From assembly GCF_964355755.1 (NCBI RefSeq), contig NC_092675.1, positions 439,001-503,000 on the forward strand: a stretch of 64,000 nucleotides of DNA, written 5' to 3'. The DNA comes from Antedon mediterranea (lineage: Eukaryota; Echinodermata; Crinoidea; Comatulida; Antedonidae). Under the pieces are notes generated by a model, which ran no database searches, was not told the DNA's origin, and saw only the letters and a program-made list of their open reading frames with translations. Every line of letters begins with the position of its first letter. Position 1 is the first letter of the stretch. A program made the translations under genes and the position numbers. Below, one piece after another: positions 34,101 through 63,934 of the stretch.

Positions 34101-37100
34101 AGATGATAATTTTTTATTGCATTTCACACTGGCCTCAGTTGGCAAACAATCGCTTTGACTGAAGATCCATGCTACAAAATGGGATAAAACACAACCATTA
34201 CAAACATTAAGATGTTGAGGAAAAGGCCTTCGTGATAAATACCTATTTGACATTGTCGTTTGCGACAGACGTCTTCTACACTCATAAACATGACCAACTA
34301 ACAAATTTTCTAGCCATTTTAAAATATTCGTAATGGGAAATATAACAAGAATACAATTTTCAACTCCACCTTAAAATTATCCACTCACAACTAATAAACA
34401 ATCAATTTTCTTGTTTTTAACTTCAAACAGGCACTAATATTCTGTGCTGTAAGTTTTTTTCAGAAAGAAACAATAATCAACAAATCAGAATACTTGAATA
34501 CTTTTTTGTACATTTTTCCAAACATATTTTCTTAAAGTCTCCAAAACAGGTTTTTTCTTTTTAATGTTATTTTTTTTCAAACCTAGTTTTTTTAGGAAAC
34601 CAGATATTTAGTGGCACATCAAAGTGTACATTTTTGAAACAGTTGACGGAAAAAGTTAAAATGTTAATGTTATACCTTCAAATCCATAAGCTGTATAAAT
34701 ACGAATATTGGTAATGCGATGCAGATCACTTAAATCAACATACCAATAAGGGTTCTGGTTTCCTGAAACTAAAGATAAACAATTCTCAATTCTTTGTGTG
34801 TTTAATTAATTAAAAGCAACATTTTCTAAAATCTGTTTAATTACTCTGACTCTGAACAACCATTTACATCGTTTTATGCCTGTGTAAACATAAACTTAGC
34901 ATAAATCTAAAATCCTTTAAGTAAATAGTAAAGGGATTCAATGTTTTTATATTATCTACAACCCCAATTAATGAAGATGAAAAATACTTAATAAAAAAGA
35001 GTTATTATTTGACTTTATAGAATTGAACTTTAATTTGAAGGAAAATACAAACAACCTAAAAGACTGATTAAAGAATATTAAGATTACAAAGAGTTTAACA
35101 TGTGCCCCAACAAAAACCAACAAGTCGTTTGACGCTACAAGACGCTACAAAAGAAGGCTAAAAAACATTTATTTTAGCGGCCCAAAAATGTTTGTAAAGC
35201 CCTGTCTACACTATCAAACTAGTTTGAAAAAAAAAGTGTGATGTGCCCAAATATGGTAGTGATATGCCCAAATATGGTAGTGATATGCCCAATGTGATAG
35301 TGATATGACATCATCGTGTCCATATATGGGCATGTCTGTCACATTTTGTTGTCACATAAAGTTTGATAGTGTAGACAGACCTTAACTGTAAATAATCAAA
35401 ATTTGGATTGACCTATACTCAGATTGCACTTACCAACTGTACGTGAACATGAACCATAGTTGAAATTCTTATTATTGTTACCATTAACAGCTAAACCAGC
35501 ATCATACAATATACCATCAGAGGAATAAGTTGTACTCTGGTATGCAGGCTTGCCAGTTGACACAACGCCTTTTACAAAATAAAAACACAATCTGACACTG
35601 CATACAATGTTAACAATTTACATTATAATTTTAAAGTATTGAAACATTATGTATTTAAAAAGAAAGATTATATATGAACAGACTAGGTCACTCGGTGAAT
35701 TAAAGGGCTTTACAATACTTTCAATATTGTACATTGTCTTAAAATGCCTAATTCTAAATTGTATAATATAAATATTTTTAAGAGAAACAACATAATTATC
35801 TGCTAGAGTGTGATGCAGATTTTAGGATAATGATGACTGTCCAAATCTTAAACAACATGTAAAAAACAAATTTGCACTGATTTATGCATGTTTTTATTCA
35901 TTTAGTTGTTGCAGTGATTTTTCTTGTTTAATAAATATCTTTCTTTTAATAATTATATCAATCACATTTTTTTAAATTTAATTCTATACAAATGCATTCT
36001 TCTAATATTTCTTCGTAATATTTTATATAAAATGAAATTCTTCAAAACAAATAAAGGCGCTAGTTCTGTTTCGCACCTGTTTTTATTTCGACTTCCTTTT
36101 GACTCCAAATTGTTAAGCAACTTATTGTGAATACCACACCTTAAAATTGGGCCTCATAAGTACTTTTATGAAGAAGAATCACATAAAAAGTAACAAATAA
36201 ATCCTTAAATTGATGATTTAACAGACATGTTTCTCGCATACCGTTCGTGAATTTAGCATACTCAAAGTTCAATATTTTCGTTTCTATGGAGCGCCAAAAG
36301 AGCAACAACAATAGATGGTTAAAAACTCAGTGGAATGCGTCTTCTTTTAATGCATTTATTATTGAAATACACGTTTAATTTGAATATATTTTGTCAATAA
36401 AAATGCTGTAACATTTTACTGCTAATAATTTGCCGTTTTCAAATAGCAACCAACCCTAGGCCTAACTAAGAGTAAGACTAAGACTAAGAGGAATATTATT
36501 TAGATCAGATATACCCCTACAGTACATGTAATATGATGATGAATTTGTCGATTTTCATTCCTAAAAGTTCCTGCAAAAACCATGTACAGTATCAACAGTA
36601 ATATTTTTGTTGCATTGACATTGACAAAATATGATAAAATTGAACGTAATTTTCACCAATAAATGCATTAAATATACGCAATTTACTGAGTTTTTAGCCC
36701 TCTATTATGATTGCTCTTTTGGCACTCCATATAAACAACAACATTGAACATGGAGTATGAGAAATTCACGAACCGATGTGCGAAAAACAATTCTGTAAAT
36801 TCATCAATTTAAAGGATTTATTTTTTACTTTTTGTGTGATCTCCTTCGTAAAAGTATTTTTGAGGCCTAATTCTAAGGTGTGGTACTCACGATAAAATTA
36901 CTTAACCAATTTTGAGTCGAAATAAACGACAGGTGCGAAACGGAACTAGCGCCCAAATAAATCCATCCATGATGGATTTGAACAGTAAGGCCTAGATAAG
37001 ATAAGATAAATTTATTGAACAAACGCTTTTGTATCAGCGGCACACGTTCATTTACAAGGCAATGTAAAAACAAAAAGAAAAGTATCAAAAATAACATTTT

Positions 37101-50965: not shown

Positions 50966-53595
50966 TTATTTATTGATGTAACGTTTGAGGTAGGCTGGTA
51001 GAGGTACCATATAATTCATTATTCCAATGTATTGATGATCACCTAACCACGATGGAATTAACTCCATCGCATATACTTGTAAATACGTCATGATCAAACC
51101 GCCGACGAGGTAGCGATGACGTGGTGTTCTTGATGTTATACTATCAACCATACTATTCACGACTGGTGTTGCAGCTCCATAGCAATATTCTCGGCCTTTC
51201 TTGTAGATGTTTGTAATTCCGTCTTGATGTTCTTTTCCATAATCTTCCTTAACATCTTCTGGAACGTTTTTCCATATCTCTTCAGATATATTCTCAATAT
51301 TGTTAATTCCTATATTAGTAGATTTTCCGTACTGACCAGGTTCAATGAGGCATACCTATTATTAATAAGTAAAAACAAAAACAAGTCACATTTCAATGAT
51401 TAGGCCTATAATTAGGTTTAACTTCATCACAGTAAGAGCTTGGTTGTGATGCGATATCTGTTCCAATTTTATTAATCTTTGTTCAAACCAGCATACGAAC
51501 CTTTAAGCTCTGTCTATACTATCAAACTAGTTTGACAAAAAGTGTGATGTGCCTAAATATGGTGATATGATGTCATTGTGTCCATATACGGGCACATCAC
51601 ATTTTGTTGTATTGTATTTAGTTTTTGTTTCGTGTTTTAGTTAAAGTTAAAGTTTTATTTAAATATATATATTTAATACCGTATCTTTGATAGCATTTTA
51701 ATGAATAAAGGAATGTTTGAAAACTTATAAGAATGTTACCTTTACGCCCCATGGACTCATTTCGTAGCGTAATGTATCGTTAAAACATTCAATCGCGTAC
51801 TTGGTCATACAGTAGGCACCGCCTCCTGGAATTGCAGATATCCGTCCCCCAAGACTCCCGACGTTGACAACACGACCTATAAAATTACATTCTTTTATAT
51901 TCAGAAATATCAGTACTGCATCTATATTATCTATTTATATATTTTTTACACTAAGAAAGAGAGTACTGTACATTTCCCTAATCTAACATAGAAAGATCGT
52001 ATAATTTCAAATGTGTACATATTATTTATTTTGTTCAAAATAGCAAACGTAGAGTACATTGTATACAAGTAGTAATACCTTTACATCGTCGTATTATCGG
52101 TAGAAATGCCTTAGTAACTCTAATCGTTCCGTATACATTAACTTCAGCAATGCGTTTGATCGTCTCCATCTGTGTTATCTCAATTTCTCCGTATGTCCAT
52201 ACACCGGCATTATTTACAATCGCCCACAAACCTTTAAAAAGTACAATTTGTTTGAAATTTGACTCTTAGATACATTGCAGTATGTTAATTAAGAATGAGA
52301 AAGAATGCAAAAGCCAAAGCTGCGTACCATCTAATTAATTAATTAATTTGAATAAAGATGCACGAACAACCTATCCACCATACGCATACACTCCTACCTT
52401 TAAAACAACCTATCCACCATACGCATACACTCCTACCTTTAAAACCAGTAAATTATCTATACTACTCAGGCGTATTCACATTATTGTTTTGCTTATTAAT
52501 ATTGGGAAATCTTTCTAACGTTAAATGATACTATTCGTTCAATGTCAGTGAAGGTGATGTTCTGTTCTTCTACTAGAGCATAAGGTTTTGCTTAATGACA
52601 ATGACAAACCAATAAGGTTCAAGAGAGCACTTACAGAAACCTTTAGGAAGTGACTTTTGTATCGTTTCTTTAGCAGACAACACAGATTCTTCAGATGTGA
52701 TATCACATGCAACTATTGTCAGACGATTAGTAGTTGATGACGTGCTCAGTAATCTTGCGTTTTCACGATCTAAACAAACCCAATAATCTGAGTACGGTAT
52801 GTTGAGCCGTGGAATGTGCAAAAAGTCACATTCGTGCAAACAACCATTGTGCAAACATGTTGAACTCAAATGTGCAAACAACCACATTTGTGCAAACATG
52901 TCACCTTCAAATGTGCAAATCTGCAGAAATGTATAATCCACTAATGTGCAAACATCACGCCATTAGATGTAAAAAGGATCATAATTTGACGTTAAAAATG
53001 TTCAAAAGAAATTCTACAAAATGTGCATTCAACAGAGTACTTAATGGATACTGTCGTATACTCATTTTAAAGTGCTGCATGCACATGATCTTAGACCTGT
53101 ATGCATGGTCTCTGTTAAATATTAAGAGTATATTGGGAAAAAATTGTTCAGTGCTTTAAAAATACTTTAAATACGCCATAAGCCTAGAAATTTGAATTTC
53201 TTTCCGGATCATGTCCTACTGATACAGTACAGTGCTCCATGCAATCCAGGCTCACGTACCCGTACCTGTTTACAGAATGCAAGGCATTGTCGTTTATGAA
53301 TAATATTGTATGTAGCATTGTACTTACCCGGGAATAAGCAACCTGCATATACAAGGTAGCCAAGTTGATCTAATCTCAGGGCTAGACTGTGACCAAAGCC
53401 TGTATCACACCCCGTTATAAACACTGCCTTGTTGCTAGGACTGAGCCTCCCTCTCGGTAATGCTTTGGATCCTACGTAAATACCAACAATCATCAAAACA
53501 ATTGCTACAATGTATTCTGTTACGATAAAGCAACAGTATCCTAAAATTAAGCAGAACATCATTAATGAAATGTAAGTTGAATTTCCGACAGCCAT
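50966..53595 (-). CDS. SDR9C-type membrane dehydrogenase, tandem copy B
   Basis: Five coding exons: 53328-53595, 52635-52769, 52079-52231, 51740-51876, 50966-51355 (1083 bp, 360 residues). Same plan as copy A: hydrophobic N-terminus, [18 protein letters not shown] and LIEPGQ. Differences: exon 4 is one codon longer ([20 protein letters not shown]), exon 2 ends KGFC instead of QDVG, and the C-terminus is longer, ending [11 protein letters not shown]. The first exon is almost identical to A and C from [15 protein letters not shown] onward, whereas the membrane segment varies ([18 protein letters not shown]). Same orientation as the neighbouring copies; function as for copy A. Confidence 0.9.
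51504..51612. mobile_element. MITE of the AAAGCTCTGTCTACAC family, 3'-truncated copy
   Basis: Begins TAAGCTCTGTCTATACTATC and contains AAACTAGTTTGAC, GTGATGTGCCTAAATATGG and GGGCACATCACATTTTG, but the second inverted end is missing. It lies in intron 4 of the second SDR gene. Confidence 0.8.
52366..52443. repeat. 39-bp tandem duplication
   Basis: ACAACCTATCCACCATACGC + ATACACTCCTACCTTTAAA occurs twice in a row in intron 2 of SDR copy B. Confidence 0.95.
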
Positions 53596-58224: not shown

Positions 58225-61200
58225 ATGAAATGCCATTATGAAGTACTAGGTGTTGAACAAAATGCCTCTGACAACAGTTTAAAAAAAGCATACAGAAAAT
58301 TAGCATTACAATGGCATCCAGGTACTGGCATTTTTTATGTAAAGAAAAATTACAAAAATATAAATATTAAATAAATTTATCCTAGAATGCAATTTAATTA
58401 CAATATAACTAATAAGAAACCTGATTAATACAGGAATGCCAAAATAAATTGGTCTTTTAAGATACGACATAAATATAAAAACCGTTTGTTTTTATAAATT
58501 TAACTTTTCAGACAAAAATCCAGACCGTATTGACGAATGCACTTCTTATTTTGCTGTCATACAGCAGGCTTATGATGTGTTAAGTGATCCACAGGAGCGA
58601 GCATGGTATGATAAACACAGAGAAGCCATCATTCGCGGAGGTCAGTGTTTGATTAAATTGGGTGGGGAATGGGATAGGGTTATAACTTACCCTCATTAAA
58701 TGCCATAGTTTGGACAGCATCACAACCAGACTGACACACAAATTGAGGTTTAAACTAATATATTAAGAAGAATGCTATAAACTAATATTTACTTTTGAAT
58801 AATATTTTAAATAACAATTTTTTGATCGCTTTCTTTCTTCTCTCCCCATGAAGAATATTGTCAAAGGAGGAATTGGAATGAAAAAAAAGGAAAAGTTTTT
58901 ATAGAGATAATAGCAATTGGGATTTAAATGTTTTTACTTTGTTTTAAGAATAAGTTTTAACTTTGTATATTTTAAAATGCAGTTGATTGTTAAAAGAGAA
59001 AATGATCGGCCTACCTGACGTACTGTAATTCTATGTTTTATTATGTAGCACAATGGCATTCACCACTAGTTTTAGGCTAGCTATATCAAGGATAGTTTGT
59101 TAAATAATTTTTTTCTTCTAGGATTTGGTGATGACTACAAGGATGACTTTATTGATTTGGTTCCGTACTTGTCACCGTCATGTTACTCAGGTTTCTCAGA
59201 TGATTCCAAGGTACACTAATTACTATAATTAGAAAGAAACCCTACTGTACTCTTTTAAAAACTGTACTCAAAGTACTTTACAAATAAATGATTTAGCACT
59301 GAGAGTATATTTTGCAAGACATAAAATGTACAAACTTTGTATTTAAAAAGCAATTTGTTTTTCATCTTTACATACGTATAATATATTCTTTGGAAAGGTT
59401 TCAGAAAGGCTTCATAAAAACTTGACCCTTTTATGTGTTTTTAGGGATTTTATTCTGTATATGGTGATGTGTTTCATAAAATAGCCGAAGAAGACAAAAG
59501 ATTTATGGACTCTGATGCTAGTGATTATGATATTCCCGCATTTGGGGATTCAAAAAGTAATTACGAAGAGGTTAGATTTTATATTAATTATGCTAAATTA
59601 AATAATTTTGCATCACACACTCAATCGAATATTAGGGACTTCAGCACTGAGTATTGTTTTTTGTTATAATTTTGAATACTGAGTATAGAGATATGTCAAA
59701 TAAAAATAATAAATACATTAATAAGGTTTATTTTAATATTAATTGACAGGTTGTTCATATATTTTACGCATATTGGCAAAGCTATAGCACTTCAAGGTCA
59801 TTTGTTTGGGTTGAGAAATATGACACAAGAGAAGCACCTAATCGACAAATTTCACGACTGATGGAAAAGGACAACAAGAAACTTAGAGACAAAGCAAAGA
59901 AAGCATGGAACGGCCATATCAGGGTAAAGCTCTGTCTACACTGTCAAACTTTATGTGATGTGCCCATATATGGACATGATGATGTCATATTAGTGCCATA
60001 TTTGAGTATATCACTACCATATATGGTATTTTTGTCAAATTAGTTTGATAGTGTAGACAAAGCTCTAGGGTAACTTTTCTTCATTTATATTTTGTTGGAG
60101 GTTATTATATTTTATTTTTAGTTATTTAACATATTTTTTTTTATATATTGTGTTATTCCCTGCTGTATGTTATGTTTGATTAACTAATTTTTTTAACCTT
60201 AAAATAATTTCATACATTTTAATTTCTTTCAGGAATTAGTAACAATGGTTAAGAAACGTGACAAACGAGTACAAGCAAGGAAGGTAATAAGTTTCACACT
60301 TTTATTTTTGTAATCAATTTAATTTAACAGAGAGTGAAAACAGATGAGTTATTTAACAGAATTTGTATCCCACCCACAAAGGAAACATTAACCATTTGAA
60401 TCAAAGACTGGCACTAGTCTTGCTGTACAAATGGGAATGTAATGTATTGATCCTGGACAAATGTATACAGTCAACTCTCCCAAAACTTTCCCAAAACCAG
60501 ACTTTCCTTTAAAGTTTTTGAGAAAGAGTAAGAGGAAGACCAATATTACTTTATTTAGATGTTTTAAGAATCTATTATGTGTAAAGTGGGACGTGCCCAC
60601 GAAAGACAAACAAATTTGAGGTCAAAAAGGTCTCAAATTTAATTTTACATATTAGGCCAGCCCAAAGGTGTCTGGTGTTGGAAGAGTTGATTGTACTTAT
60701 GAAACAAATGCATAATTACAATGATATTAAAGAACTAACAAAGTGAAATATTAGAAACTTAAATGAATGTCATTAACATTTGTTGTTTTGTTATATGAAA
60801 GGCACTGATGGAGGAAAGAGCAGCAGAAAGAAAGAAGTTGGAGGCAGAGAGAAAAGTAAAACAGCAGAAAGAAAGAGCCAAGTGAGTACAAAATACTTTT
60901 GATGATGGCTGTATACACACTCTGGTATAAATATGAGTCTAATATCAAATCAAATAATACTCTTTTGTCCTAAGTAAATTCAAGGATCGATATAGTGGAG
61001 AAAAAAATAAATACAGCAGTACTGTATATACAAATAATACACAAATTTGTTATAAAAATATGAAATTGTCATCTCTAGACGTCATGAAGAATATGCAATA
61101 GAGGGTATGAAAGCCAAGGCAGAAATGGAGGAAGATCTACAAGCTATGGAGGCTAAGCTGAATGAAGAGTTTGGTGTCAATTCATCAGTAAGCTTAGGTT

Positions 61201-63934
61201 AGTATCAATGATGTTGTATGACATTCCCTAATTGGCCAACCAACATATATGACTGACTACCTATTTTCTGAACTGCTAACTGTCCAATGAAGTTGTAGAA
61301 TGTTACTTATGTCCTTATAGCTTTAATCAAATTACTATGTCATTTAATATTGTCCTTAATGTTTTAGACGGCTCAGATGACTGTTCAGATCCAGATGAGA
61401 TGTTAAGTGATCTGTTTTGTATTGCATGTAATAAAGAATTCAAAAGTGATAAAGCGTAAGTAACCAAGCCTACATTAAGTACATATAAACAAATAGTAAT
61501 AACACTCCAATTGAACCTAAAGCTCTGTCTACACTATCAAACTTTATGTGGGAAAAAAATGTGATGTGCCCATATATGGACATGATGATATATCGATACC
61601 ACATTTTGGGACATCACACTTTTATCAAACTAGTTTGGTAGTGTAGACAAAGCTTTATAATAAACAGTTAAAGTTACTTTTTTTTCTGGTGACAGATTTG
61701 CAAATCATGAGAATTCGAAGAAACACAAAGAAAACATGACTTTTTTAAAACAGCAAATGGAAGATGAGGAGTCGGAATTTGTAGGAGAAGATGAGGAGGA
61801 AAATGTTGATAGTGAAGAAATTGACAATTTAAATGGATCAACAATAGACACAGATGATGAAACTAAATCTACCAATAATGTTGAAGAGGATGCAGAACAA
61901 TTTGTTCAATCTAAATCAAAGTTGGTGTTTTAAGCTGTTTGTTTTTAAAGGGGGGTTCCGGGTTTAAAATGAATAGTAAAAAATGTAAAATATATTTGTT
62001 TGTCTCTTGAACGGTAAAAGTTTCAATTTATATAAGCGCCCAGTGAAGCAGAACGAAGGCTGTGAAATGAGGCCAGATTACAAGTGCAGCTACGGCAAAA
62101 TCACACTGTGGTTACAGAATAGGAAATTCGTGAAATGGTCAATCTTCCGACGACTCGTTATCATTAACCATATCAATTACTTTTGTAAAATTATACTTAT
62201 CTGATGTAATTTTAGTCGGTCTTCCCATTTATAAAGTCAATTTTCTATGAAAATCCATCAAAACAGTGAAAAATTAGATAAGTTTGCACTTTACGTTTGC
62301 CGATTTTCGCACTGACTTAGGGAAAGCCTTCAAAATCAATGAAGCGTAACGTATACATTCCTGAGCGAGGAGAGCGAGACGACGATACACGTGCTCTCTC
62401 TGCCCATGCCTGGCATCGTCGCGTGATAAGCAGATACAGTATACAATACCAAACTGGTCGGGTCGAGTATACCCCGTCTATAATCACAACATGAACGATG
62501 TACAGTATTTGATTGAAGGTCGACTCAACCTACCGGAATGGTATAGATAATATAGCTCGAATGAGAGAGTTGGAATATTTGTAAACATAAGTACAGTATT
62601 GCTAATTTTAACAAGTGTAGCCTAGCGTAAGTAAAAGGCCTGGTAGTATCAATTCGCATAGGGTCTACTACACTAGCTAGCTCAATTTTTAACTGGGCCG
62701 GATCGGCTAGGCTAGGCTAGGTCTCCTTCCTACTACCGGTCTACTTGCTTGATGCAGTATCCGCTTTTTTGGAGAGTAAACTAGGCCTACTTATTAGACG
62801 ATCGGGACACCATACGTGCGGACGGTGATCGGACCTTGTTTTGCCTCAATATTTACAGCCGATTTTTGTAGAACGTTTTTAATAGGTTTAGATTGTTTAG
62901 GAGTTTGGTTGATAGGATGGGTTTGGAATCCACTGAGTTTTGTTATTTATGGGCCAATCGTTTAGTAATAGGCTAGCTAGGCCCATGAATGATGGCCCCA
63001 ATGTTTTAACGTAGCCATCGTGGCATGGAATCCCTAGTCAGAAATGGCTCTCACCCCGGCATGAATAAAATGATTTAGGCTAGGCCTAGCCTAGTACGTG
63101 AAGCCGATATACGATCTGTACTATAGGCCTATTATTATAAATTCGAGGTATAAAAATAGTATAATTTATGACTCCGTAATCTGTACTAAATTTTGTATTT
63201 CATTAAATGTCAAATAAATATATGCTACTACTGTTATTATTACACTTTAGGCCTAGCTTAGCAAATCTACAAAAAATGTATTTCACAATGATCGGGTGGT
63301 CGTCGTTTGACAGAGGAGAGAGAACACAACGTACAAGCTTGACGTCGCGAGTTTGGAATCCACTGATGACGTGATTTTGTGAATATCTCATGAATATTAA
63401 TGAGCTTCCCTAAGCTGCTGAAAAACAGATTTTCCATGAATTTACCCTAAAATGTATATGAAATTTAATTTTTTTAATTTCTCGTTATTACTTCTTCATT
63501 CTGACATGTCTATATTGTTATAATATTTTTTATTTAATAAATAAACGATATTTAAAAGCAATTTTAAACCCAGAATCCCCCTTTAAATACAGTAGAACCC
63601 CTATTACGGACCACTTTGGGACCCCAACAAAGTATAAAAGTTTCTCTTGTTTAGGAGCTGGCCATAGTGTAAAAATATGTATTTCCCTTTGTTTATTTCA
63701 CAGGAAAGTGTCAAGGAATGTCCCAAAGGAGGGGTTCATTTATCTAATTCATTTATGTATACTGTATTTAATACTTCAATTTAATTGATCATACAAAATA
63801 AAATATCTATCTATCTATTAGAGTAAGCTGATCAACTCATTGTTATTTTGATTTATTAGTTGCCAACAGTATTTACGCATTTTCTTGTTAGGTTATCAAA
63901 AAAACAAAAGAAGAGGCGGAGACAACAGAATAAA
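58225..63934 (+). CDS. DNAJC21: DnaJ homolog subfamily C member 21, 3' incomplete
   Basis: Eleven coding exons: 58225-58321, 58512-58640, 59122-59210, 59445-59570, 59750-59923, 60233-60283, 60802-60881, 61079-61197, 61368-61455, 61696-61920, 63892-63934; all phases agree (1221 bp, 407 codons). The J domain spans residues 1 to about 70 (YEVLGV, HPD at 31-33 split by intron 1, [15 protein letters not shown]). Then come the [17 protein letters not shown] region, [14 protein letters not shown], a Lys/Glu-rich coiled coil with [16 protein letters not shown], and a U1-like C2H2 finger (C306, C309, H322, H328: [20 protein letters not shown]). An acidic stretch follows and then [12 protein letters not shown], as in vertebrate DNAJC21. 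The protein acts in 60S ribosome biogenesis and stimulates Hsp70. The last exon ends in GTGAGT, so the second zinc finger lies beyond the window. Exon 10 would hit a stop if unspliced (KLVF then TAA). Confidence 0.93.
59926..60066. mobile_element. 141-bp MITE inserted at a DNAJC21 splice donor
   Basis: Inverted ends AAAGCTCTGTCTACACTGTC and GATAGTGTAGACAAAGCTCT. Flanked by AGGGT (up to AGGGTAA) at 59921 and again at 60067. The host exon ends AGG|GT, so the target duplication created two copies of the 5' splice site, one on each side of the element. Confidence 0.9.
61519..61656. mobile_element. 138-bp MITE of the AAAGCTCTGTCTACAC family
   Basis: Inverted ends AAAGCTCTGTCTACACTATC and GTAGTGTAGACAAAGCTTT, with the shared centre GATGTGCCCATATATGGACA. 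It lies in DNAJC21 intron 9, about 40 bp before the next exon. Confidence 0.9.
61921..63891. other. DNAJC21 intron 10
   Basis: About 2 kb without any recognised exon. A CpG-containing patch with several TAGGCCTA/GGCTAGGCTAGG phrases lies at 62600-63100. A lone (TATC)n run is near 63810. No complete element was delimited. Confidence 0.6.

Follow-up and report, generated by a model that had tools for sequence, protein, structure and literature searches.

A MITE begins inside the donor splice site of a DNAJC21 intron

How can an exon keep its donor when a transposon lands directly on it? This question is raised by a locus near the end of the window, the whole 64,000-nt stretch of the Antedon mediterranea genome analyzed here (NC_092675.1, positions 439,001 to 503,000), where, in a DNAJC21 intron, a MITE begins after the first three bases of the donor. 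The sequence AGGGTAA is present twice, at 59921-59927 and 60067-60073, with the inverted-repeat element in between. A preliminary description regarded the locus as a rare, clear case of a donor preserved by the 5-bp target duplication (AGGGT) of the transposon itself. We found that the case is real, yet it is not rare, nor is it clearly due to a five-base duplication.

The DnaJ and C2H2_jaz domains flank the zuotin homology domain in the expected order, so we identified the gene as DNAJC21 with its reading intact. When the two exons on either side of the intron are joined, the peptide (..NGHIR/ELVTM..) matches Pfam ZUO1-like_ZHD (1.4e-19) and aligns with zuotin without a gap over the junction (E 7.8e-6). 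The reading is thus intact through the left junction, and the exon end at 59923 given in the preliminary description was confirmed. The element has 26-bp terminal inverted repeats (TIRs) that are 88% complementary, and is 86% identical to the family consensus. The features are listed in Table 1. No DNAJC21 site without the MITE, either as an empty paralogue or as a second haplotype, was found in the assembly.

Table 1. Features of the DNAJC21 locus (window coordinates) and MITE copies at donors of other genes
Feature	Position	Strand	Evidence or remark
DNAJC21 exon (zuotin homology domain), phase 0 end ..NGHIR	59750..59923	+	translation; Pfam ZUO1-like_ZHD; zuotin alignment
Present 5' splice site GTAAAG (GTA, host target; AAG, MITE end)	59924..59929	+	sequence; family boundary
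Left TA, family target site duplication	59925..59926	+	TA conserved at both copy ends
Left terminal inverted repeat including TA	59925..59950	+	inverted-repeat comparison
MITE copy, 139 bp between TAs (143 bp including TAs, 59925-60067)	59927..60065	+	family alignment
TAG in frame, reached if the right donor is used	60041..60043	+	translation
Right terminal inverted repeat including TA	60042..60067	+	inverted-repeat comparison
Right TA, target site duplication	60066..60067	+	TA conserved at both copy ends
Second AGGGTAA with competing donor AGG|GTAACT (GT 60070-60071)	60067..60073	+	sequence
3' splice site AG of the 309-bp intron (59924-60232)	60231..60232	+	sequence; ungapped joined peptide
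Next DNAJC21 exon, begins ELVTM..	60233..60283	+	sequence; zuotin alignment; Pfam
L078 1502, AGO (PIWI domain)	G000:C1:5371573		MITE exactly on 5' splice site
L085, HIBCH-like (ECH_2)			exon end exactly G|GTAA
L092, SDHC-like (Sdh_cyt)			exon end exactly G|GTAA
L088, SPRY			exon end exactly G|GTAA
L081, FAR1-type			exon end exactly G|GTAA
L082, L087, L089, three more exons			readable downstream exon; no Pfam match

The MITE family duplicates TA

The family numbers thousands of copies. Its 22-bp TIR core has 9,274 exact matches in 354 Mb, some of them inside tandem arrays, and exact TAA-type ends number 5,499 genome-wide. The family TIR string, AAGCTCTGTCTACACTATCAAAC, did not occur in the literature searched.

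We aligned 40 copies, then 61. Nearly all of the 61 have TA on both sides, and the base adjoining the TA is variable, giving TAA or TTA. TAA on the left is combined with TTA on the right in 21 copies, which argues against a 3-bp TWA duplication. A PIF/Harbinger MITE, with identical TWA on both sides, was rejected on the same count. A shared flank longer than TA is not general among the 61 copies, its frequency not exceeding that of mismatched pairs; the two exceptions are the DNAJC21 copy (7 bp) and L039 (G000:C9:21155924-21156874), whose flanks carry a perfect repeat of 19 bp, CAAACAATGTTAAAGGTTA. Both repeats are placed after the right TA. Further, only one TA is present in what appears to be an unoccupied relative (76% identity) of the L026 insertion flank. 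Taken together, the TA at both ends, the lack of a longer general duplication and the single-TA relative indicate that the target duplication of this family is TA, not AGGGT. T59925 and A60067, which had been counted as target, then belong to the family-wide TA, and the element boundaries shift correspondingly.

TA is the target listed for Tc1/Mariner MITEs and TWA that for PIF/Harbinger (Table 1 of PMC6593561). Like Tc1/mariner-type (Stowaway-like) MITEs, the present family is short and non-coding, with TIRs (26 bp here, on a 139-bp element), thousands of copies and TA at both ends; unlike them, the base beside the TA varies between TAA and TTA. It is the TA, and the TA alone, that suggests the Tc1/mariner superfamily.

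The bases upstream of the TA were also compared. G precedes the target TA in 19.0% of the 5,499 TAA-type ends, the corresponding figure for all TA in the window being 18.3%. GG before TA is about 4-fold under-represented (43 of 1,046 G-flanked ends vs 408 of 2,416 in the window), a preference in target choice over and above TA.

The element enters downstream of GTA and leaves a chimeric donor

We consider it quite probable that the MITE entered at the donor TA, that this TA was duplicated, and that the retained left GTA still serves as the splicing donor. A high-copy, TA-targeting MITE would have struck the TA inside the 5' splice site, most likely by ordinary cut-and-paste. Entry 3' of GTA would keep exon|GTA in place, with the MITE terminus taking over from +4 onward, and would yield the chimeric donor AGG|GTAAAG. 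Most likely, this donor splices the upstream exon to the next one (Table 1), and the MITE leaves with the intron. The insertion may be tolerated in that GTA stays beside the exon while the TIR end, AAAGCTC, offers a serviceable +4 to +6. Since its entry point lies 3' of GTA, the GTA of the left donor is retained whatever is duplicated; in either duplication model the left GTA is original host sequence, whereas AAG (+4 to +6) is MITE. Preservation of the donor, which the preliminary description ascribed to the target duplication, needs no 5-bp duplication.

On the TA model, the standard empty site would have been CAGG|GTA-GGGTAACT, with the donor AGG|GTAGGGTAAC (in longer context, CATATCAGG|GTAGGGTAACTTTT). 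The previously proposed pre-insertion donor, AGG|GTAACT, could hold only if five extra bases had been duplicated on insertion, and the family data do not establish it. The two models differ in the empty allele that they predict, namely ATCAGGGTAGGGTAACTTT for TA-only insertion and ATCAGGGTAACTTT for an added 5-bp duplication.

Alternative readings of the repeat, the element and the donor

The second AGGGTAA may be either a pre-existing GGGTAGGGTA run or an extra short duplication made upon insertion. A 5-bp target duplication (AGGGT or GGGTA) of a pre-insertion donor AGG|GTAACT would explain it directly, and the 7-bp repeat is above chance, since only 0.4% of mismatched left/right flank pairs in the family match over at least 7 bp (p about 0.004). 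TA insertion alone requires GGGTAGGGTA to have been there beforehand, which, with this flank match, counts against our preferred explanation, as does the shortage of GG at insertion sites. From L039 it is clear that an insertion of this family can come with a longer flank repeat; a short tandem duplication may occasionally be added in the process, and GGGTAA at DNAJC21 is placed alike. Given the p value and the usual avoidance of GG, a local extra duplication still deserves weight as a rival. However, no 5-bp direct repeat is general among the 61 copies, T59925 and A60067 are family-conserved positions, and the donor is not repeated on the right in any other AGGTA-flanked copy with a readable right end. 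We therefore regard the 5-bp duplication as unlikely, and keep TA insertion as the preferred reading.

We wondered whether the MITE might be an introner, i.e., itself the spliced intron. The TIR ends with G flanks yield GTAAAG...CTTTAG, resembling GT...AG. However, element and intron do not coincide at DNAJC21, where 165 nt of non-MITE intron run from the right TA up to TTTCTTTCAG at 60232; the copies at the AGO and other donors are also followed by more intron, and L091, which looks like a candidate, has no domain support. An introner is thus very improbable here.

Which donor is used is a separate matter. 5' splice sites usually have G at +5, and the left GTAAAG lacks it. The predicted U1 pairing energies (kcal/mol) are −6.2 at the left donor, −5.9 at the right donor and −9.1 at the empty site of the TA model; left and right are about equal, so that the sequence alone cannot decide between them. 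Preservation of the reading frame speaks for the left. If splicing went partly or mainly through the right donor (60070), the transcript would gain 146 nt of MITE and meet the premature TAG that the preliminary description had pointed out, and DNAJC21 output would fall. In favour of this, besides the equal pairing and the missing +5 G, the predicted fold puts the left donor at the foot of the hairpin formed by the TIRs. On the other hand, the right donor is likewise predicted to be paired, DNAJC21 is otherwise intact, and at least eight other exons bear the same type of MITE-end donor. Appreciable use of the right donor seems doubtful to us, somewhat more so than the 5-bp duplication, and splicing from the left donor remains our reading. 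The effect at the DNAJC21 locus alone is probably neutral.

In sum, the preliminary description was right about the gene, the position of the exon end, a MITE inserted at the donor, the repeat and the in-frame TAG, whereas the element boundaries and the 5-bp duplication, with the pre-insertion donor derived from it, were not confirmed; nor was the rarity, as the other genes show.

The same MITE lies on donors of other genes

Exact TIR ends preceded by AGGTA number only 19, and at least 8 of these lie exactly at the end of an apparent coding exon (Table 1), so that "rare" is wrong for this genome. The AGO copy is a cleaner example than DNAJC21. Its joined peptide aligns with human AGO3 without a gap, and removal of the MITE and one TA gives AAAG|GTAAGTCAG, a perfect consensus donor (AG|GTAAGT).

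Enrichment of insertions at donors, first suggested by these exon ends, was not borne out by comparison with 187 matched AGGTA sites in the vicinity of other copies. The reading frame that ends at the site contains a Pfam domain in 3 of the 19, compared with 16-20 of the 187 (p 0.39-0.45; the 16-20 range spans four families beyond those listed). Selective depletion at donors was not borne out either, AGG accounting for 15 of 43 GG-flanked ends (35%) vs 30% in the window (p 0.49). The comparisons give no hint of donor targeting or of selective loss of such insertions, although the power of 19 sites is low. With a gene-rich genome, TA insertions in their thousands would suffice, and chance hits that leave donors usable fit these counts.

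We tentatively propose, as a possibility rather than as the favoured outcome, that wherever the family lands on a donor TA, its terminus reconstitutes a functional donor (GTA + AAG), so that the donors of conserved genes (AGO, HIBCH, SDHC and DNAJC21) can be occupied at little cost; chimeric host-MITE donors would then form a systematic class in this genome. With DNAJC21 and 8 of the 19 AGGTA copies, a transposon end apparently contributes to a constitutive donor at no fewer than nine sites in one genome. These sites make insertion tolerance and the strength of the GTAAAG donor testable by ordinary RNA-seq.

Introners are DNA-transposon-like elements whose splice site comes partly from host target sequence (PMC9860276). 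The splice site of the DNAJC21 MITE is likewise partly host target sequence; unlike introners, the element struck an existing intron at its donor and created none. MITEs are found at alternative splice sites in mulberry (PMC6593561). Here too a MITE contributes splice-site sequence within genes, but it is a constitutive donor that is apparently retained, as host GTA plus MITE end, in several genes of one genome.

Other copies and tandem arrays

Another copy of the family, at window positions 61518-61657, occupies most of a different DNAJC21 intron, which interrupts the C2H2 zinc finger (..SDKA|..). Other full or partial copies in the window lie at 35195-35383 and 51505-51602. Tandem arrays of the TIR were observed at G000:C1:410892-412383, C1:1406559-1410627 and C1:30457244-30457966, with hits spaced at multiples of roughly 42, 92 and 39 bp, as though the MITE end had seeded satellites.
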